In this document: piece after piece, positions 1,228 to 10,686 of the stretch
Layout: every line of letters begins with the position of its first letter
How positions within the stretch are numbered: position 1 is the first letter of the stretch
Source of the DNA: Leisingera sp. NJS204
GTDB taxonomy: Bacteria > Pseudomonadota > Alphaproteobacteria > Rhodobacterales > Rhodobacteraceae
Direction of reading: 5' to 3'
Assembly (NCBI RefSeq): GCF_004123675.1
Contig: NZ_CP035417.1
Location: 1,541,501 to 1,605,500, forward strand
DNA: 64,000 nucleotides
Made by a program: the position numbers and the translations under genes
The notes under the pieces: generated by a model
Database searches by the model: none
What the model was told of the DNA's origin: nothing
Seen by the model: the letters and a program-made list of their open reading frames with translations, nothing else

Positions 1228-2148
1228 TTAAGGGTCGGGCTGGTTGCAGACCGGGTCGGGACTGGCACCATCGCAAGAGCCGAGTACAAAGACCCCGTAC
1301 TCCTCGATTGGGGGAGTATTCCCCGCGAAGGCTTCAATATGGCTTGTCGCGTGGACCGAGCCTGCCACTGTTGCGGCATCCGTACCCGAAAAGACGCCGC
1401 CGTATTCGCCGACACTTGTGCCTCCAGCATTGACAGCGCCTGTAAACGAGCCGTCTGACGATATCGCCGTGTTCATGAGGGTCAGATCCTCGACGGCTGT
1501 TGCAGGCAGGTCGGTGATCCGGCGGTTGTAGATCCGGCCTTTGACTTCACTGTCTTGTGTGAAGTCGGCATTGATGAAGACATCACCGGTAACTTCTGCG
1601 GATTGGCCGGGGAGAATTGAAGGGTCGGTGCCGGGAGCGGGGGTAAGCAAGTCGCCGCCGTCGCCGTCAATGTTCAACAGACCCACATAGGTGCCGGCAT
1701 AGCTGACGATACCGCCGGCCCCCGCATCCGTATCGGGGGCGGTAAAGCTGCCGGTGCGCCCGTAGGTCGTGCCGCCCTGGTAAGTGCCGAACTGCCCGCC
1801 TGTCACAACGACAGCAGCGTAACCGCCTTCGGTTTGACGCACATAGGCAGTCGAGTGCTCGGTCAGTGCGTTGTCTTGAACGGCATAGGCCTCATAGCCA
1901 TTGCGGTCCAAAGCGGGCTTGCGGATATAAGTCGCGGTAAAGGGCGTTTCATCCAAGCCGACACCAGTAACAGTCAGTGTTTGGTTGCCTGGGTCATAAT
2001 CGACGCTCTCAAGGTCATTTGCCAGAGCTTCGGGGATGGTGGTGGTCGGATCATCTGTGGGGTCATCCGTCGTTGTGGTAAACGGATTGCCCCCGCCGCA
2101 TGCGGACAGCACGGACGCTGCCGCGAGCCCTAGCCAATAGCGCCTCAT
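1228..2148 (-). CDS. TbpB-like surface lipoprotein, probable Slam cargo
   Basis: 306 residues. The signal peptide ends in the lipobox LSAC, so Cys17 should be lipidated, followed by a flexible Gly/Thr/Asp-rich linker (GGGNPFTTTT, DDPTDDPTT). The second half resembles the beta-barrel domain of transferrin-binding protein B: a stretch naming VFINADF, VKGRIYNR, then a strand-turn pattern ending in GEYGGVFSGTDAATVAGSVHA. In that family such modules are 8-stranded barrels on the cell surface. The Slam gene follows after 3 nt. The ligand cannot be read from sequence. TbpB-like barrels bind host iron proteins in pathogens, but in a marine bacterium other ligands (haem, siderophore, adhesion targets) are as likely. 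The start is ATG, with a GGTAGAG Shine-Dalgarno-like stretch just before it. Confidence 0.75.
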   Translation of the reverse strand: MRRYWLGLAAASVLSACGGGNPFTTTTDDPTDDPTTTIPEALANDLESVDYDPGNQTLTVTGVGLDETPFTATYIRKPALDRNGYEAYAVQDNALTEHSTAYVRQTEGGYAAVVVTGGQFGTYQGGTTYGRTGSFTAPDTDAGAGGIVSYAGTYVGLLNIDGDGGDLLTPAPGTDPSILPGQSAEVTGDVFINADFTQDSEVKGRIYNRRITDLPATAVEDLTLMNTAISSDGSFTGAVNAGGTSVGEYGGVFSGTDAATVAGSVHATSHIEAFAGNTPPIEEYGVFVLGSCDGASPDPVCNQPDP

Positions 2149-2563
2149 CTGTCTCTACCTCAATTTGTTTTATCGTTTTGCGCCACCTTCGGTCCAGGCT
2201 GGCCTGTTGTCAATTGAGCCGTTGGCATTTGGACGCAACCGTGGCGGATACGCTACCTGCATGTAGCTTCAATTCAAGCCACGCTGCGCATATGTTGTAT
2301 GAAAGGAACGGCGCGGAGGTGTTTTTGATCTTGGCGCTTGATGGCGCAGCCGATATGCCGGGGCGTGAATTCCGGGTGCAAATCGAGGCAAGCAGCCATG
2401 CATCGGTATCTGGGCTGGTGCCGCGGCTTTCTGTTTCACAAAGCGTTGTGGAACGTTCTTGGGACAGAAGAATGAGCTATCGCCTTGCACGTGTTATTCA
2501 TTATGATTGAAAAGGCCTGCTGCGCAGGTTTCTGTTGATAGCAAAAGATGTGGAGACAGAGGC
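2149..2563. other. Intergenic region between lipoprotein and thyA pseudogene
   Basis: About 415 bp upstream of two divergent units. The left part should hold the promoter of the lipoprotein-Slam pair. From about 2470 the sequence begins to resemble the region upstream of intact thyA (a shared CATTATGATTGA and nearby matches), so the right part belongs to the duplicated segment. I see no convincing gene here. Confidence 0.5.
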
Positions 2564-3180
2564 ATGCGGCACCCGGAATAACAGTATCTGGACCTGATCG
2601 AACGAGCCCTTGAATACGGGGACGAGCGGGTTGACAGAACAGGGGTCGGCACCAGCTCGCTGTTCGACGCCATGGTTCGCTTTGATCTATCGGATGGCAC
2701 TGCGCCTATTCTGACGACCAAGCGTGTCTATTGGAAAACCGCAATCAAGGAGATGCTCTGGTTTCTGACCAGGGGCACCAATATTAAGCCGCTGCTGCGG
2801 GAAAATGTGCGGATCTGGACAGACTGGCCGCCTATCGCCGCGAGACAGGCGAAGGCATCACGCAACAGGACATTGAGCGCAGAATTACCGGGGACAACGG
2901 CTTTGCCGCCCGATGGGGGGGGCTTGGCCCTGTAAACGGGAAACAGTGGCGGCGCTGGATGGGATCAGATGGCCGCGAACATGACCAGATCGGGACGCTG
3001 ATCCCCTCGCTGCGCGAACCCCCTGCGAGCCGGCGCCTGCTGTTTCACGGCTGGAACGTTGCGGAACTGGGGGAGATGGCGCTGCCGCCCAGTGATATGG
3101 TCTATCAGTATCACGTGACCTCTGACGGGCGCCTGAATTGCCATTTGTTCCAGAGATCGGCCGATTTGCTGCTGGGGCGC
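2564..3180 (+). pseudogene. Decayed thymidylate synthase duplicate
   Basis: Reads as a close relative of the intact thyA 813 bp downstream but is broken in several ways. There is a TAA stop at codon 6 (MRHPE then stop), a frameshift after RENVRIWTDWP, and loss of the 3' third: similarity ends at about 3180 after DLLLG. The catalytic Cys of the LPPCH motif is replaced (LPPSD, about 3088-3102), so even a repaired product would be inactive. Long conserved stretches remain (RVYWKTAIKEMLWFLT, LLFHGWNVAELGEMALPP). The upstream region also matches that of thyA, so this is a tandem segmental duplication, or two imported alleles side by side, with the first copy decayed. Confidence 0.88.
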
Positions 3181-3376: not shown

Positions 3377-4273
3377 ATGCGGCATCCGGAGTATCAGTAT
3401 CTGGACCTGATGGAGCAGGTTCTAGAGCGCGGGGACGAACGCATTGATAGAACCGGCGTTGGAACGCGGTCACTGTTCGGCGCGATGGTCCGGTTTGACC
3501 TGTCGGATGGAAGTGCGCCGATTCTGACGACCAAGCGCGTCTATTGGAAGACCGCCATCAAGGAAATGCTCTGGTTCTTAACTGGTGGAACGAACATTCA
3601 GCCACTACTGCGGGAAAATGTACGGATTTGGACAGATTGGCCGCTTGCAGTCTATCGCCGCGAGACCGGTGAGCAAGTAACGCAAGCGGAATTTGAGCGA
3701 AGGGTTGTTCAAGACGATAGCTTTGCAGCTCAATGGGGTGAACTCGGCCCCGTCTATGGGAAACAGTGGCGGCGCTGGATGGGGGCTGACGGGCGTGAGC
3801 ATGACCAGATTGAGATGCTGATCCGGTCGCTGCGGGAAACTCCGGCAAGCCGCCGTATGCTCTTTCATGGCTGGAATGTCGCCGAACTAGGAGAGATGGC
3901 ATTGCCGCCTTGTCATATGGTATACCAGTACCATGTGACGTCTGACGGGCGGTTGGATTGCATTTTATTCCAGAGGTCAGTCGATTTGCTGCTGGGCGCC
4001 GCCTTCAACTACGTAGGGGCTTCAGCACTCCTGCTCATGCTTGCGCAACAGGCGGATCTTCAACCGGGCGAACTGGTCTGGTTTGGTGGTGATGTGCATC
4101 TATATCTCAATCATATTGAACAGGCCCGCGAGCAGCTGAAGCGCGAACCTCGACCCTTGCCCAAAATTTCTCTGACTAGGCGCGCTGCTAGTATTGATGA
4201 CTATCAGATTGAGGACTTTAAAGTGGAGGGATACGATCCCCATCCCCACATAAAGGCTGAAGTGGCGGTGTAG
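3377..4273 (+). CDS. thyA: Thymidylate synthase
   Basis: 298 residues. Converts dUMP and methylene-tetrahydrofolate to dTMP and dihydrofolate in the cytoplasm. The catalytic cysteine is Cys179 in ALPPCHMVYQYHV. The folate/dUMP-binding stretches FQRSVDLLLGAAFN and GDVHLYLNH are present, as is the N-terminal R-T-G-V-G-T phosphate loop. Length is normal for the longer bacterial ThyA type. GGAGG lies about 10 nt before the ATG. A small gene follows after 7 nt and may be co-transcribed. A decayed tandem copy lies upstream and an IS cluster starts 270 bp downstream, so the locus sits in an accessory region. Many alphaproteobacteria use ThyX instead; whether this strain has thyX elsewhere cannot be seen. 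Confidence 0.95.
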   Translation: MRHPEYQYLDLMEQVLERGDERIDRTGVGTRSLFGAMVRFDLSDGSAPILTTKRVYWKTAIKEMLWFLTGGTNIQPLLRENVRIWTDWPLAVYRRETGEQVTQAEFERRVVQDDSFAAQWGELGPVYGKQWRRWMGADGREHDQIEMLIRSLRETPASRRMLFHGWNVAELGEMALPPCHMVYQYHVTSDGRLDCILFQRSVDLLLGAAFNYVGASALLLMLAQQADLQPGELVWFGGDVHLYLNHIEQAREQLKREPRPLPKISLTRRAASIDDYQIEDFKVEGYDPHPHIKAEVAV

Positions 4274-4280
4274 GCTTAGA

Positions 4281-4505
4281 ATGTCTGCAGAGGCTGATTA
4301 TCAGTCCGGCTGTGTCGTAGAGTCACGAGGCGGCAAAATCAGCCGTAGTCACTATGCCAATGTACTTGGGTGTTCCAGGGCAGCATTTTGGCATTTTCTT
4401 TTTGTCTTCGATGAGATTGAGCAAAAGTTCAGTCTGAAAGTTGGAGAAATGCGTTTTTCGGCTACAGAGCGAAAGCTCCGTAACCTTCTTGAACAGGACT
4501 GCTAA
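4281..4505 (+). CDS. Small protein with HTH-like N-terminus, unknown function
   Basis: 74 codons starting 7 nt after the thyA stop, so probably translated from the same message. No clear Shine-Dalgarno sequence is visible, which suggests coupling. The segment GGKISRSHYANVLGCSRAAF (residues 17-36) looks like a helix-turn-helix, of the kind found at the N-terminus of some site-specific recombinase-associated proteins. The C-terminal half is helical and charged (SATERKLRNLLEQ). It ends 37 bp before the inverted repeat of the IS5-like element, so it may be the remnant of a longer gene displaced by the insertion. The HTH reading is inference from pattern only; I recognise no family. Confidence 0.45.
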   Translation: MSAEADYQSGCVVESRGGKISRSHYANVLGCSRAAFWHFLFVFDEIEQKFSLKVGEMRFSATERKLRNLLEQDC

Positions 4506-4980
4506 GCTGGAAGAATTGTACCTTCTAGAGGCGGAAAGATTAGGCTCAGGACTCCTAGCCAGTAGATGACGAGCGCGGCCAGCGCGGTTGCGGATAGAAA
4601 GACCTTGGGGCATCTATCGTATCGGGTTGCCACCCGTCGCCAATCTCTTAGCCTTCCGAACATGATCTCAATCCGGTTGCGCCGTTTGTAGCAACGCTTG
4701 TCGTACTTGACGGGTTTCTTCCGCCGCTTCCGACCTGGGATGCATGGGCGGATCCCCTTGTCTTGCAGCGCTTCTCTGAACCAGTCCGCGTCATCCCCAC
4801 GGTCTCCGAGCAACCAATCGACCTTCGGCAGACTGCCGAGCAACGCCCTTGCGCCGATGTAGTCGCTGACCTGACCAGCCGTCACGAACAGGTTCAGCGG
4901 GCGGCCCTGGCTGTCACAAACGGCGTGCAATTTGGTATTCATGCCGCCTTTGGTCCTGCCAATCAGGCGTCCACGCCCCC

Positions 4981-5026
4981 GTTCTGTGGGCAATTGATCC
5001 CCCGGATCAATTCCTGGCCCGCTTCA
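4981..5026. repeat. 46 bp hairpin insert in IS5 transposase
   Basis: The transposase coding sequence is continuous if 46 bp are removed (VK joined to GRGRLIG). The insert centres on a perfect 9-bp stem, AATTGATCC and GGATCAATT, with a CCC loop, flanked by GGGC and GCCC that can extend pairing with a bulge. It is unrelated in sequence to the 37-43 bp mini-element 50 bp away. No second copy was noticed in the window. Confidence 0.7.
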
Positions 5027-5077
5027 CTTGACGCCCATGCTGGTCGCCGTTCGATGTGTCTTCAGATAGGTCGCGTC

Positions 5078-5118
5078 CGCTGCCCGGCAGGGCATTGCGC
5101 AGCAATGTCCCGAAAGGG
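5078..5118 (-). repeat. Palindromic mini-element, copy 1 (41 bp)
   Basis: Reading on the minus strand it starts CCCTTTCGGGACATTGC, has a central hairpin CATTGC-TGC-GCAATG, and ends in the palindrome CTGCCGGGCAG plus CG. It is inserted in the IS5 transposase directly before the codon of the first catalytic Asp and shifts the frame. The right flank is GACG. Confidence 0.85.
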
Positions 5119-5644
5119 GATCATTACAGTCTTTGACTTGCCCTGATCGGCAGCCAGACCGACCATCATCTGCGCGAAGATGCCTTTATCGCTCCAGCGC
5201 TGCCAACGGTTGTGCAAGGTCTTATGCGGGCCGTTTTCCTTTGGCGCACCCCGCCAGCGCAAGCCATTGCGATTGATGAAGATAATCCCGCTCAGGACGC
5301 GCCGGTCATCGACCCGAGGCTTGCCATGGGACTTTGGGAGATAGGGCTCCAGTCGCGCCATCTGCGCATCGGTCAGCCAAAAGAGATCAGACATGTCACC
5401 GCTCAATTTTTGACCGGTGAATCATGACGGTCAACCGAAATCAATGGGTCCTGACCCTTCTGTATCTCCGGTTTGCTATGTTGCCCCCGTCAGTCGCCTT
5501 GGCCGAGGTTGCTGACGGGGCGGTGTATGGCGTCTGAACCTTGTGGGTTTGACCACGTTTCCTAGCGAGCCAGCCCCGTCTCTCTTCATCGTCTCGAACA
5601 GTTGAATGTGGCCGCATCGGACCACGGAGCAGAAGGAAGAGGGT

Positions 5645-6646
5645 ATGAACACGATAACACCGGAACGGATCATTGGCATAGATGTCAGCCGGGACTGGCT
5701 CGACATTCATTGTCTTCCGTGCGGCCATCGGCAGCGATTGCCAAATACGCGCAGAGGGCATTCAGACGTTGTCGATTTGGCAATGTCGCGAGGTGTATTG
5801 GTATGCTTTGAGGCCACAGGCGGGCAAGAATGACGGCTGTGGGCCGCTTTCGATGCAGCCGGCGTTACGACACGACAATTGCCACCTGCTCAAATAAAGG
5901 CCTTTGCTGCCAGCCAGGGCACTCAGGCGAAGACAGACCGGATAGATGCGGAGCTCATTGCGAGGTTCATGCATTGCCCGGCAGGCGATTTGCGGGGCAA
6001 ATCTGCCGGGAGGGGCATTCAGGCCTGATGCCGCGCGCTGTCTGCCGCATCAAAAGCTAGTCTTCTCAGAGCCTTGGTTTCGAAACGCGGGCAACTCCTC
6101 GAAACGCGCAAACGTCTTTTAGCGCAGATAAAGGCGCATCGGAAACTGGGAACGGCGGAAATATTCGCAGACACGGACGCCGAACTAAAGGCTCTGCTGG
6201 ATCGTCTGCTCACGGCGTTGGAGTTTCAGATCGAATCCGCCATCGCCACCAATGAGGATCTGCATGAGGCGGCTGAAATACTGCGATCCGTTCCGGGGAT
6301 CGGGCCTGTCGCCAGTTCCATGCTAATCGCTGAAATGCCCGAACTGGGCCAACTGCCGGGAGGACAGGCAGCAGCTCTGGCCGGTCTGGCCCCTATTGCA
6401 CATGACAGCGGCGCGATGCAAGGAAAACGCACAATTGCAGGTGGACGACGGTTGCTGCGGCACGTCATGTTCCAGGCTGCTCTCGTCGCCAGCCATCACA
6501 ATCCGGTTCTCAAAACCTTTGCAGAACGCCTTCGATCCGCTGGAAAACCGCACAAAGTCATCATCACTGCGGTCGCCCGAAAGCTGGTTGCAATCGCAAA
6601 CGCACTCGTCAAAGCGCGTCAGAAATGGTCCCCTCAGTTCACCTGA
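5645..6646 (+). pseudogene. IS110-family transposase, nonsense mutation plus mini-element insert
   Basis: DEDD-type IS110 transposase. The N-terminus has GIDVSRDWLDIHCLP (first Asp) and VCFEATGGQE (Glu), then a TGA where Trp is expected (about 5831). The frame goes on through QIKAFAASQ and KTDRIDAELIARFM (last Asp pair). The 43 bp mini-element at 5972-6014 interrupts it eight codons after that Asp pair. The C-terminal domain from about 6060 is clear: a coiled region, then SVPGIGPVASSMLIAEMP and GGRRLLRHVMFQAALVASHHNP, ending at 6646. IS110 elements lack terminal inverted repeats, so element ends were not assigned. GGAAGAGG precedes the ATG at 5645. Confidence 0.85.
5972..6014 (-). repeat. Palindromic mini-element, copy 2 (43 bp)
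   Basis: On the minus strand: CCCTCCCGGCAG, then stem GATTTGC-CCC-GCAAATC, then the conserved CTGCCGGGCA end followed by ATG. The stem differs in sequence from copy 1 but is still fully paired. It sits in reverse orientation within the IS110-like transposase gene. Confidence 0.82.
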
Positions 6647-6758
6647 GAAATACAGTTGCTAGGGTGAAGAATTGGTCCTCCTGCTGGAAGTGCAAGTGGA
6701 GCAATTTCCGAAGATGCTCTGAGCTACTCCCCAATGTTTGGACAGGTTTTGACGTAGG

Positions 6759-7671
6759 TTAAGCTACTCTCTGCTCCTGCTGATCGGTTTGGGTTTCTTC
6801 TTTTCTCAGCCAAAAGACCACGGCTGGGGGTTTGCCGCCAAGGGCGGAGTGTGGGCGTTTCCGGTTGTAGAAATCGATCCATTTCCCAACGCCCGCCTTC
6901 GCCTCTGATCCGGTCTCCCAGGCGTGCAGGCAGACGCATTCGTATTTCAACGACCGCCAGAGCCGCTCGACGAAGATGTTATCGAGGAAGCGCCCCTTGC
7001 CATCCATCCGCTGCCCGGCAGCGCATGTGTGCATGCGCGAGAGGGGAGATCCGCACGCCGGATCGGCGCAATCTGCTCGTCCAGGCAAAAGATGTGAACT
7101 GGCTGCCCTGATCCGTATTCATGATTTCCGGCGGGCCAAACCTGGCGATGGCCTCGTTCAGTGCCTCGACGCAGAAGTCTGCTTCCAGCGTGTTCGAAAG
7201 GCGCCAGGCCAGCACCTTTCGGGTGTGCCAATCCATGATCGCCGCCAGATACAGAAAGCCCCTGCGCATTGGCAGATACGTGATGTCGGCACACCACACC
7301 TGATTGGGACGCTCCAGGCGTAGACCACGCAACAGATAGGGATAGGTCTTGTGCCCTTTCGCTGCTTTGCTGGTGTTTGGTTTCTGATAGACCGGCATCA
7401 AGCCCATCAGCCGCATCAAGCGTCGGATGCGCTTCTCGTTCACAAGGTGCCCGTCGTTTCGGAGGTGCCAAGTCTTCTGGCGGACACCAAAGAACGGCGT
7501 TTCCAGGAACTGTTCCTCGATCCGGCGCATCAACATCAGGTTCATCGCCGTCTCGCCCTTGGGCGTGCAGTAAAACGACGACCGCGAGATCGACAGCAGC
7601 TTGCACTGCTTGCCAATCGACAGGTTGGCATTGGCAGGCTCAACCATCTTGCGCCTCACTTGCCGGTCCAC
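6759..7671 (-). pseudogene. IS3-family transposase OrfB, interrupted by mini-element
   Basis: OrfB with an HTH_21-like N-terminus (LSISRSSFYCTPKGE) and the rve integrase core: first Asp in VWCADITYLPM, second in NTDQGSQFTSFAW, third acidic residue in NIFVERLWRSLKYE. The 37 bp mini-element at 7009-7045 lies 22 codons after the second Asp (after SGVRIS) and shifts the frame, so the C-terminal part from MDGKGRF is read in another frame. The 5' end overlaps orfA (7656-7949), as expected for the programmed -1 frameshift of this family. Confidence 0.88.
7009..7045 (-). repeat. Palindromic mini-element, copy 3 (37 bp)
   Basis: Minus-strand reading: CCCTCTCG, stem GCGCATG-CACA-CATGCGC, overlapping the conserved end CTGCCGGGCAGCG. 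It is the shortest copy. The stem sequence is unlike those of the other copies but perfectly paired. The right flank is GATG. Confidence 0.82.
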
Positions 7672-7949
7672 GGCTTGAGCTTTCGTGACAAAAAATCGTT
7701 GGCGACAGCCAGCTTCCCGATCTTCGCGTGCAGTTCTTTGACCTGCTCCTCGTCGATCTCTGGGGACTTCTTTCCGCCGTGTTCAAACACGCCGGACGCG
7801 CCTTCCAGCAGAGCGCGTTTCCAGCTGTGGATCATCGTGGGATGGACGCCGAATTGGCTGGCAAGCTCAGCCGCAGTTCGCTCACCCTTCAAAGCCTCAA
7901 GCGCGGCTTTCGCCTTGAACTCGGGCGAGTGGTTCTTCCGTTTCGACAT
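7656..7949 (-). CDS. IS3-family transposase OrfA
   Basis: 97 residues, intact. N-terminal helix-turn-helix of the HTH_Tnp_1 type (KRKNHSPEFKAKAALEALKG, then TAAELASQFGVHPTMIHSWK), followed by a leucine-zipper-like helix (EEQVKELHAKIGKLAVANDFL). In the family, OrfA binds the IS ends, and an OrfAB fusion made by frameshifting is the transposase. OrfB here is interrupted, so OrfA alone would act at most as a repressor of related elements. OrfA and OrfB overlap by 16 nt. Confidence 0.88.
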   Translation of the reverse strand: MSKRKNHSPEFKAKAALEALKGERTAAELASQFGVHPTMIHSWKRALLEGASGVFEHGGKKSPEIDEEQVKELHAKIGKLAVANDFLSRKLKPWTGK

Positions 7950-8029
7950 CTCTGATCTCCTCTTCGTCGAAGACCAGCAGACAACAAATCATAGCTTACG
8001 TCAGTGTCCGAAATTCAGGGGGCAGCTCA

Positions 8030-8340
8030 ATGTTTCTTCCCCGGAGGTACTCATCGTCTTCGGCAGCGCTCTCATGCTGCAGTTCACACACGAACCTGGC
8101 ACGCACCATTGCACCAAATTCATTTTGTGCATCCACGCACCCATCTGACATGTAGCGCCATCGTCCCATTGATGCCCTGCGCCAACCACCAAAATCAGCG
8201 GTGGACAGGCTGGTAAGGCGGTTTGAAATGAGCCTTTGGCAAATCGTCGAGGCATGGAATGGGCGTTGATGATGTGACCGACCCCGACGGCATCACTTTG
8301 CCAAGGTGGGCCTGCAGCGATCCACAAAGGAGAGCGGTCA
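8030..8340. other. Non-coding 5' region of the second IS110-like element
   Basis: About 310 bp between the IS3 end and the IS110 transposase start. In IS110-group elements the non-coding end upstream of the transposase encodes a bridge RNA that pairs with target and donor. This stretch is in the right place and of plausible size. I did not work out target- or donor-binding loops, so the RNA is only a candidate. An in-frame extension of the transposase up to 8259 is probably not translated, because the good Shine-Dalgarno belongs to 8341. Confidence 0.35.
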
Positions 8341-9410
8341 TGTCAGAGATTTTCACGGCCGGGCTCGATCTGGGGAAGAATGTGTTTCAGGCTCACGGGG
8401 CAGATGCAGCGGGGCAGCCTGTTCTGCGCAAGAAGCTGCGGAGGGGTCAGGTGCCGGCCTTCTTCAGCGGGTTGCAGCCCTGTGTTGTCGCGATGGAAGC
8501 CTGTGGCGGCGCTCATTTCTGGGGCCGTGAGATCAGCAAACTGGGCTGTGATGTACGGCTCATCCCTCCCGCCTATGTGATTCCCTTTGTCAAACGCCAG
8601 AAGAATGATGCAGCCGATGCCGAAGCGACCTGCGAGGCCGCGCTGTGTCCGGCAATGCGCTTTGTACCAATAAAGAGCGAAGAGACACAGCGCGCGGCTA
8701 TGGTGTTTCGCGTGCGCGAGCTTCTGATCCGGCAGCGGACCCAGGCCATCAATGCACTGCGAGGGCTTTTGAGCGGGTTCGGACAGGTCGCACCGCAAGG
8801 GGCGGCCAACGCGTCGAAGCTGATTGCAATCGTCGATGACCCGGAAAGCGGCTTGCCAGCCGATGCCGCCTCCACACTCAAGGTGCTGATCACGGCCCTG
8901 ACCAAGTTGGAGGCAGAGATTGTCAAACTCGATGCCGGGATCGCCCGCCGGGCCAAGGAAAACGACGTGGCGCGCCGCCTGATGACGGTGCCGGGCATCG
9001 GCCCGCTGATCGCTACGGCCATCGCGACCCTTGCTCCGCCACCCGAGACGTTCCGCAAGGCCCGGGACTTTGCGGCATGGCTCGACCTCACGCCCCGCCA
9101 GCATTCGACAGGCGGCAAACAGCGGCTCGGGGCCGCAACGACCCTCCCGGGACATTGCGTGTCGCAATGCCCTGCCGGGCAGCGGATGGGCGAGCGGTCC
9201 CTGAGGCGCCTGCTGATCATTGGCGCCAACAGCGTCATCATCAAGCGTCACGTCCATGCCGAGGCCAAGCCAGGCACGTGGCTGGGCGGGATGTTGTCAC
9301 GCAAGCCACCAATGCTGGTGCGCGTTGCGCTGGCGAATAAAATGGCGCGGATCGTCTGGGCCTTGATAGCCCGGGGTGGCGTCTACCAGTCTCCGGCCAC
9401 GGTGGCATGA
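8341..9410 (+). CDS. IS110-family transposase with in-frame mini-element insert
   Basis: 356 residues from the ATG at 8341, preceded by AAAGGAG. The DEDD RuvC-like domain is complete: Asp in TAGLDLGKNVFQ, Glu in VAMEACGGAHFWGREI, Asp-Asp in KNDAADAEA. The C-terminal Transposase_20 domain has VPGIGPLIATAIATL and, at HSTGGKQRLG, the probable active-site serine region. The 43 bp mini-element (9142-9184) replaces one Lys codon with about 15 residues (TLPGHCVSQCPAGQR) and keeps the frame, so the ORF stays open to a normal C-terminus (MGERSLRRLLIIGANSV). Whether the protein still works is unknown, since the insert lies about 11 codons after the serine. It is the only one of the five transposases here not obviously broken. 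Confidence 0.88.
9142..9184 (+). repeat. Palindromic mini-element, copy 4 (43 bp, in frame)
   Basis: Plus-strand reading: CCCTCCCGGGACATTGCG-TGT-CGCAATGCC then CTGCCGGGCAGCG. The stem CATTGCG/CGCAATG is extended by further G-C pairs around an A-C mismatch. It is inserted just before ATGGGCGAG in the IS110 transposase and leaves the frame open. The right flank is GATG. Confidence 0.85.
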
Positions 9411-9709
9411 GCCAGCGGTAGGCCGCGAGGACGTTGGAGCACAAGAGGGCAAGGAGCAGTTTGGCGCAACAGTCGTGAGACGGGATCGGAAGAACCAGCC
9501 TGCAACAAAGTGCCTGTGAGCACGCGGCGTTGATTTGGGGGCTGATCCGCGAACACCATACGGGTCCTGCGGCATGTGTGACGCCGCATACATGTCAGCA
9601 CCCGATGACGCGCCAAAATCAGCTTAGAAAATACTTCTTGCGCAAGGGGCGGTTATACATGTTGCAGAATTCGTCGTCGGGACGCGCTTCCCCCCTTTCC
9701 CCTATGAAG

Positions 9710-10686
9710 TCAGGCCACGCGTTTGATCTCGGCTTGGCCGAGTGCATTGAAGCGGTTCATGAGGGCAATGCGGATGTGGATTTCGGCGGTCTGCCGGTTG
9801 GGGTCTCGTGAAGCGATCCTCTCTCCGAAGGGTTTGAGACTGCGCATCCATTGCCCGGCAGTGCATTGTGCAGAAATGTCACGAGAGGGTCGCCTCGATC
9901 CGACTTCGGACGTGATAGCCTGGCCAGCGTTTCCAGATCGTCCGCGCAAGGCGCCGGGTCGCCTTGAGAATGTCATTGCGGGCGCTTGCTGCGGGGCAAT
10001 CCTCTTTCCACGCGCGCCCGTTCTTGCGGATGGGTATGATGGCGGTGCCGCAGCGCTTAAGGATTGCGGAGTGGCATCTGCGGGTGTCGAAAGCCCCATC
10101 GCCGGTCACGGTGCCGATCAGTTGATCCGGTGGGATCTGGTCGAGCAGGTCAGGAAGGACGGGACTGTCGCCCTCACGGCTTGAGGTGAATTCCACGGCC
10201 CGGATGTCGCCGGTGCGCATGTCCATCGCAACATGAACCTTGCGGTATTGGCGCCTGCGCCGGGTGCCGTGCTTCCGGGCCAGCCATTCGCGATCACCAA
10301 GAAACTTGATCCCTGTGCTGTCCACTAGCTGGTTGAGGGTGGGCGTCCGACGGCTCGAGATTCTGATGGTGATGTTCTTCTGTCTGCGGCCAGGGTGGAA
10401 AAGTCGGGAACCGGTCAATCCAGACCAGCCATATGCAGAATGCTCGACGCCATCCCGGTCGTTTGCCGGAGCGGCAGGCCGAACAGCACTTTCACCATCA
10501 GGCGAACAGGATCGCCGCACCGGAGAACACCGGCGGCCGCCCTGGGCGTCCGGCCTTAGGGGCATGCCATACCATGTCCTGGTCTAGCCAGATCAACAGA
10601 GAACCACGCCGTTTCAGGGCCTTGTTATAGGACTTCCAGTTCGTAGTGCGATAGCGGGCAGGTTCAGGTTTGCTCATACCGAGCAA
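9710..10686 (-). pseudogene. IS5-family transposase, frameshifted and interrupted by mini-element
   Basis: The N-terminus from 10686 (SKPEPARYRTTNWKSYNKAL, LIWLDQDMVWHAP, GRPGRPPVFSGAA) runs into a TGA through a small deletion near 10500. The middle continues in another frame: LVDSTGIKFLGDREW with the first Asp, VTGDGAFDTRRCH with the second, SRIEA with the Glu. Directly after SRIEA the 41 bp mini-element (9849-9889) gives a stop. The C-terminus (MRSLKPFGERIASRDPNRQ to IALMNRFNALGQAEI) is in a third reading. No functional protein is expected. Confidence 0.86.
9849..9889 (-). repeat. Palindromic mini-element, copy 5 (41 bp)
   Basis: Minus-strand reading: CCCTCTCGTGACATT, loop TCTGCAC, AATGCAC, then TGCCGGGCAATG. 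The stem GTG(A)CATT/AATGCAC has one bulge. It is inserted right after the SRIEA motif (third catalytic acidic residue). The right flank is GATG. Confidence 0.82.

Follow-up and report, generated by a model that had tools for sequence, protein, structure and literature searches.

Insertion sequences (IS) of the IS200/IS605 group, such as IS608 and ISDra2, have hairpin ends and insert without target duplication, 3' of a short target that lies outside the element. Rickettsia palindromic elements (RPE) are known for translated insertions in ordinary genes, and the mitochondrial byps and the T4 gene 60 bypass are short hairpin insertions in coding sequence. Repetitive extragenic palindromes (REPs), typically arranged as dimers, were reportedly described by Tobes and Pareja in 2006 as targets of insertion sequences. 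In one account (PMC3733652), GTAG- and CGTC-tagged REPs, which may or may not come with RAYT Y1 transposases, are palindromes of 20-40 bp that have variable stems and, at one end, an unpaired tag, and that sometimes lie in genes; the CGTC type (terminal CGTC tag, 8-9 bp stem, loop of 4-5, CCA tail) is reported there without a dedicated transposase, and RPE are also mentioned. Here we describe a small hairpin element, most commonly 41 bp long, from a 64,000-nucleotide stretch of Leisingera sp. NJS204 (contig NZ_CP035417.1, positions 1,541,501 to 1,605,500; hereafter the window), where five copies lie at 5078-5118, 5972-6014, 7009-7045, 9142-9184 and 9849-9889, each in a transposase gene. We read it as a REP-like, non-autonomous single-strand hairpin that is mobilised in trans and is parasitic on insertion sequences, a reading to which we give a probability of roughly 0.55.

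All five copies named in a preliminary description of the window are present, the one at 9142-9184 on the minus strand, and the ends given there are exact, agreeing with those deduced from empty sites elsewhere. The pattern TGCCCGGCAG-N18-30-AGGG matches the window five times against 0.02 expected, and none of 100 shuffles reaches five. A covariance model built from 19 elements recovers the same five copies and no others, with E values of 8.9e-13 to 1e-5. The element is laid out as C-R-Y-TGCCCGGCAG, then a variable hairpin, then CGAGAGGG: a 5' tail of C-R-Y-T-G leads into a foot of CCC/GGG and a 4x4 internal loop, GGCA/GAGA, followed by a variable stem that often carries a bulged T, and the base of the helix is the 3' end of the element. 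For 19 distinct 41-bp elements, 97.8% of cells are paired in the structure ....(((....(((((((((...)))))).)))....)))., and both sides have changed in 7 of 12 pairs. All seven fall within the nine-pair inner stem, so that the compensatory change with pairing kept, claimed earlier from the five copies, was borne out. The covariation score was 0.466, while shuffles gave 0.126 and slid controls no more than 0.090. The invariance of the ends TGCCCGGCAG and AGGG is by construction, because both belong to the search pattern; the stem does not. A total of 93 flank contexts was reduced to 77 for target counts by dropping 8 viral contexts without a hairpin and 8 with a short-stem type, and among these 77 the elements measured 41 bp (n=40), 37 bp (n=12, with a stem lacking the bulge) and 43 bp (n=8). 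Each of these common lengths shifts a reading frame.

We then joined the flanks of the elements and aligned them to uninterrupted relatives among the fetched loci, so that the results apply to the matches listed. At two types of site with empty relatives 95.5-96.5% identical, the insert is exactly CRY-TGCC...AGGG and nothing is duplicated; clean empty sites in close relatives read CTCAAT^GCGG and GTC^GATC. The uninterrupted relatives lack the element, which disposes of the possibility, raised in the preliminary description, that they contain it as ordinary coding sequence. A chance repeat or ordinary coding sequence was ruled out by the shuffles, the reversed-pattern controls and these element-free relatives. 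In the closest pairs the element lies after C-R-T-C and before G, and the target over the 77 contexts is C-R-T-C^G (left: C 0.65, A or G 0.83, T 0.62, C 0.77; right: G 0.81). The GATG or GACG noted earlier beside the copies is indeed present, and it is this target read on the other strand, outside the element. Both orientations relative to the host gene occur. The same hairpin was found at many unrelated sites; together with the filling of one and the same site in diverged IS copies without co-converted flanks, this indicates that the element moves and chooses its sites precisely. In four comparisons covering 75 sites, matches between the hairpin and its flanks were not in excess, which speaks against base pairing with the flanks as a guide (p 0.36-0.92; two further short-stem contexts, from L062, were left out of this and of the motif ranking below).

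Most of the hosts that could be assigned are transposase genes. We scanned 137 of 149 open flanking fragments, from about 75 of the 77 contexts, and nearly all the families matched were transposases (judged from the first 25 of 32 and 25 of 28 families listed). Strong matches were to IS3, IS5, IS1182, IS30, IS66, IS110 and IS91, with IS256 added by further scans, and weaker names (IS481, IS21, IS630, IS4) may be cross-matches. The non-transposase flanks among the families listed were a tyrosine recombinase fragment (L036) and a cytosine methyltransferase on a viral contig (L078). In the Leisingera genome itself, transposase genes account for at least 22 of the 34 contexts, 16 with a match in the flank fragment (that of L042 weak) and 6 more in the same IS copy or a homologue; one other context is in a tyrosine recombinase fragment, one is beside an IS200-type gene (L206) and one is out of register. 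The even intergenic spread without transposase bias that the preliminary description had set against its own proposal was not seen, the own-genome contexts being not mainly intergenic. The covariation, the empty relatives and the transposase flanks support what it had proposed, namely a non-autonomous element that depends on its structure and builds up in IS genes. It had also left room for targeting; accumulation holds, and both aimed insertion and survival of insertions in such genes stand as readings of it.

The element is not restricted to the 5 kb where it was first noticed. The genome (5.04 Mb) has 53 pattern matches, compared with 1 for the reversed control, and 73 covariance-model matches at E <= 0.01. 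We mapped 70 of 76 listed places to the 34 distinct flank contexts, dropping six unplaced places; two entries are out of register. Among 61 genomes, 25 had pattern matches and none had control matches; all 25 belong to the 37 genomes of the window's own family, Rhodobacteraceae, with 0 of 24 outside it. A broader sample of 289 genomes from the class gave matches in 9 and control matches in 2, and by eye real hairpins occurred only in the own family plus two genomes (G293 and G215). The element family is thus common in the window's bacterial family and rare outside. Plasmids carry it as well: with the E-value limit set to 10, matches came from 141 records, of which 101 covered at least 80% of the query, the best being from Leisingera, Sulfitobacter, Roseivivax, Dinoroseobacter, Phaeobacter and related genera. 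Many of 31 viral stretches with a pattern match had no hairpin and were chance matches. Separately, two viral contigs (L078 and L099) carry different hairpins at what seems to be one homologous site.

How does the element compare with the described systems? With REPs, as presented in PMC3733652, it shares a short palindrome, an unpaired tag at one end, a variable stem and an occasional place within genes; it differs in having no internal GTAG or CGTC tag, in lying mostly in transposase genes rather than intergenic DNA and in recurring at fixed sites. The GTAG tetranucleotide is not at the foot of the hairpin, where the 5' tail is C-R-Y-T-G instead, and C-R-T-C lies outside the element, as target, and not as a terminal CGTC tag; loop and tail also differ from CGTC REPs. 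The likeness to IS200/IS605 consists of a hairpin, a joint without duplication and a short 5' target outside the element, with consensus values of 0.62-0.83 per position on that side. Here, however, a single hairpin holds both ends, the target is a loose consensus and some carriers have no Y1 gene. Miniature inverted-repeat transposable elements would have terminal inverted repeats and a target-site duplication, whereas these ends pair only over CCC/GGG and the close empty sites show no duplication. RPE are likewise small palindromes in protein genes, but the hairpin here usually shifts the frame and mostly enters transposases. Byps and the T4 gene 60 insert share the short hairpin within coding sequence and differ in that the present element occurs in both orientations, often in defective hosts. 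No Rfam family matched within the window, and over seven loci the four Rfam matches were rRNA, tRNA and riboswitch in L001, none of them at hairpin elements. No description of this element was found in the open-licence PubMed Central literature, which was the literature covered. The mobile hairpin family is real, apparently undescribed in that literature, and unusual in its IS-nested habit.

Under the proposed parasitic hairpin model, an enzyme acting in trans would cut out or copy the element in the form of a folded DNA single strand, which would then be joined 3' of the target tetranucleotide. Most transposases that it enters would be inactivated, and further spread would come from riding on IS copies. 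We say only that the mechanism works like that of REPs or IS200/IS605, and claim membership of neither.

Profile matches confirmed the host families given earlier for the five copies, namely IS5, IS110, IS3, IS110 and IS5. Copy 1 (5078-5118, plus strand, 41 bp, hairpin GGCATTGC/GCAATGTCC) is antisense in an IS5-family transposase gene at 4502-5406 on the minus strand, at a place that we call site A and read as just before the first catalytic Asp; NCBIfam IS5_3 matches both host halves (profile positions 3-107 and 115-258), and relatives 79-82% identical have the empty site GTC^GATC. Copy 2 (5972-6014, plus strand, 43 bp, hairpin GGCGATTTGC/GCAAATCTGCC) is in the sense direction of an IS110-family transposase gene (5645-6646, plus strand) that has two TGA stops in frame and whose downstream half matches IS110. 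Copy 3 (7009-7045, plus strand, 37 bp) has a hairpin, CGCATG/CATGCG, without the bulge, and is antisense in orfB of an IS3-family orfA/orfB pair (6759-7949, minus strand; IS ends TGAGCTACTCCCC...AGCTCA). The IS3 profile matches both of its host halves, and the empty site is ATC^GAGAT in relatives 79-80% identical. Copy 4 (9142-9184, minus strand, 43 bp) is antisense in an IS110-family transposase gene (8259-9410, plus strand) whose frame is open through the element (383 aa), with IS110 profile positions 1-341 in one open reading frame. Copy 5 (9849-9889, plus strand, 41 bp, one non-standard stem pair) is antisense near the 3' end of an IS5-family transposase gene (9710-10565, minus strand), with IS5_2 profile positions 89-255 on one side and 255-289 on the other. 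The preliminary description placed the copies near catalytic motifs. This association may be partly explicable by the target sequence, because R-T-C^G on the other strand is C^GAY, matching the I-D codons of DDE motifs. Directly adjoining the IS cluster, at 3377-4273, is a gene that we take to encode thymidylate synthase.

The relatives of the window's IS5 gave the closest view of site choice. A scan of species genomes provided at least 80 relatives of its protein; three matches without the hairpin (L300, L341 and L354) were left out of the site count. Elements in the listed relatives occupy only four places, A, B, C and D, with one orientation each. A quick tree of 74 copies, 22 of them with elements, needed 7 changes at site A, 7 at B, 3 at C and 8 at D, near-identical copies being included and many forks open. 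Each of the four sites is gained repeatedly. Hairpin type is linked to site (p 0.0006; 26 entries collapsed and typed by hand). This link, and the small number of sites, are what gene conversion would give, that is, a rare insertion later copied into homologous IS genes at the same site by recombination. Nevertheless, similarity around the site was no greater among bearers of one hairpin type than in bearer-empty or empty-empty pairs, down to the nearest 15 nt (with 6 of the 74 rows omitted from this comparison), so that co-conversion was not seen; one close group had no shared patch, and the same hairpin sits at unrelated sites too. We regard gene conversion as already disfavoured and quite improbable. 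The view that the insertions are old, vertically inherited and repeatedly lost with precision draws on the same link of hairpin type to site, on the orientation fixed per site and on one close IS5 group that has copies with no element, with A, with D, or with B and D. It needs IS lineages that stayed active for long while interrupted at up to three sites, and about half of the bearers have further defects; we consider it unlikely. Just after site A, three loci (L330, L332, L354) have a third, longer type of insert, roughly 44 bp and ending near GCGCAAGT, at one place.

The fate of the interrupted hosts was judged from the same IS5 family by reading of alignments, with L339 set aside since its hairpin is itself interrupted. 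Among the element-free copies, both frames were open in 37 of 51, not open in 11 and ambiguous in 3. Of ten bearers with the flanks joined, none appeared clearly intact: five are damaged outside the element by stops, additional inserts or frame breaks (L321, L325, L330, L334, L344), three mismatch at the joint (L324, L332, L346, L332 also with another insert type) and two are ambiguous (L342, L353). The hairpin probably disables most invaded transposase genes. A host device that silences transposases, acting as a terminator or as antisense or decoy RNA and retained for this advantage, would fit this difference from the element-free copies and also a strong hairpin mostly within transposase genes. 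Against it are an orientation relative to the gene that is not fixed, the absence of an Rfam family at the elements in the sources searched and the one context beside a viral cytosine methyltransferase match (L078), and we think such a device improbable.

Several observations weigh against a parasitic hairpin mobilised in trans. Nine copies of the window's IS3 span the site and every one of them bears the hairpin (one copy mutated), with no empty copy among the genome matches listed; the same is true of a second IS3 type, again with nine copies across the site. Amplification with the hairpin in place implies that these IS3 move in trans or somehow make working enzyme, which is awkward if the hairpin simply kills the transposase. 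It would be easier to understand if the element were intron-like or bypassed in translation, in which case loss of the hairpin from the message, or a jump of the ribosome over it, would leave the transposase working. In its favour, the hairpins in these two IS3 types (37 and 41 bp) shift the frame, three copies of the first type have clear 3-bp duplications at the IS ends, and, in those IS5-type hosts that are cut at a D-S-T-G motif, the coding halves abut the hairpin exactly at a codon boundary. On the other hand, the hairpin occurs in both orientations with no fixed sense, and the ten IS5 bearers comprise five defective, three mis-rejoined and two ambiguous copies, the defects elsewhere in half of them counting against an intron-like element. 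Frame-keeping lengths in two hosts, those of copy 4 and of the second element of L001, would be needless if the hairpin were removed. Also, 41 nt is far below the size of any self-splicing intron known to us. We therefore hold an intron-like or bypassed element to be a poor explanation.

The parasitic hairpin reading is also burdened by joints and places that do not conform. Not all joints are clean: one or a few bases are different at the joint in the close pairs of contexts 48 and 71, and the IS5 site-D copies L324, L332 and L346 fail to rejoin in frame. Six of the 34 own-genome contexts had no family match in the fragments tried (L007, L008, L032, L043, L208 and one L033 context). The short-stem type, 3 of the 34, is found at conserved, apparently intergenic places and recurs at shared places in other genomes, one of them presumably between dnaN and recF. 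At about 1501-1534 of L051, and similarly in L012, L057, L210 and L212, the short-stem version stands beside a repeated TTTCATCTTTCCAAAAATACTCCCG-like sequence, at places common across the genus. Finally, a short motif, modelled from 71 other contexts, ranks the four IS5 sites only 21-302 among 1552 strand positions in five empty copies (top 1-20%). The short target motif is thus insufficient as the sole explanation of these sites, and something beyond it seems to guide insertion. One speculative idea, to which we give rather little credence, is that the hairpin is the address: hairpin types would home, through a trans-acting enzyme, to different fixed sites in transposase genes and make up a family of homing elements, 40 bp long, whose speciality would be to shut down mobile DNA.

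The mobilising enzyme is the other difficulty, as no dedicated enzyme was found among the Y1 and IS91 candidates examined. The preliminary description had suggested looking for a co-occurring Y1 (RAYT-like) gene, and such a gene proves not to be required in present-day genomes. Y1_Tnp is present in 11 of 41 genomes and absent from two genomes rich in the element (G002 with 44 pattern matches, G019 with 19). A Y1 transposase was rejected as partner, its presence being uncorrelated with the elements. In the Leisingera genome, one element (G000:C1:539775-539815) is about 140 bp from a Y1 gene at 539957-540316 (L206), and elements at G000:C1:950385-950599 are about 0.9 kb from another at 949127-949486. 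These two nearby IS200-type Y1 genes are a lead for the enzyme, or coincidence. IS91 copy number rises roughly with element number over 21 genomes, a correlation that may only reflect IS load, and six genomes have elements but no Y2 (G004, G006, G011, G012, G016, G020). The sole IS91 subgroup delimited, a multi-copy one among the matches listed, starts GCACTAAATCG and ends near CCTGCAGC; these ends are unlike the hairpin, which speaks against an IS91-derived element and against IS91 as the enzyme source.

The hairpin is in turn a host. In L339 an IS110-family element (about 1782 to 3050) lies inside the hairpin at IS5 site A, and L391 has a related IS110, with 77% identity across residues 128-309, at the same point of another hairpin, the junction there being visible from one side only. 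In both of these unrelated loci the insertion is after CCGAG. This recalls REPs as IS targets, with an IS110-family element at one fixed point in two loci, and differs from it because here the hairpin lies within a further IS, so that the nesting has three levels. An IS66 copy in L044 has four elements of the hairpin family and also, near 2305 and 3113, a second palindrome family (about GTCRYGCC..AGGCGTGC-loop-GCACGACGCC) twice; a relative of this second family is in L072.

For annotation, these results call for caution, since some 'frameshifted transposases' of this group are genes interrupted by a hairpin. Insertion sequences, usually seen as genome parasites, are here the hosts of a smaller parasite that cuts transposase genes at repeated exact points. 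If the element is active, it would act as a natural check on transposition in a marine group of ecological importance and offer a defined system for finding a new enzyme that mobilises single-stranded DNA.

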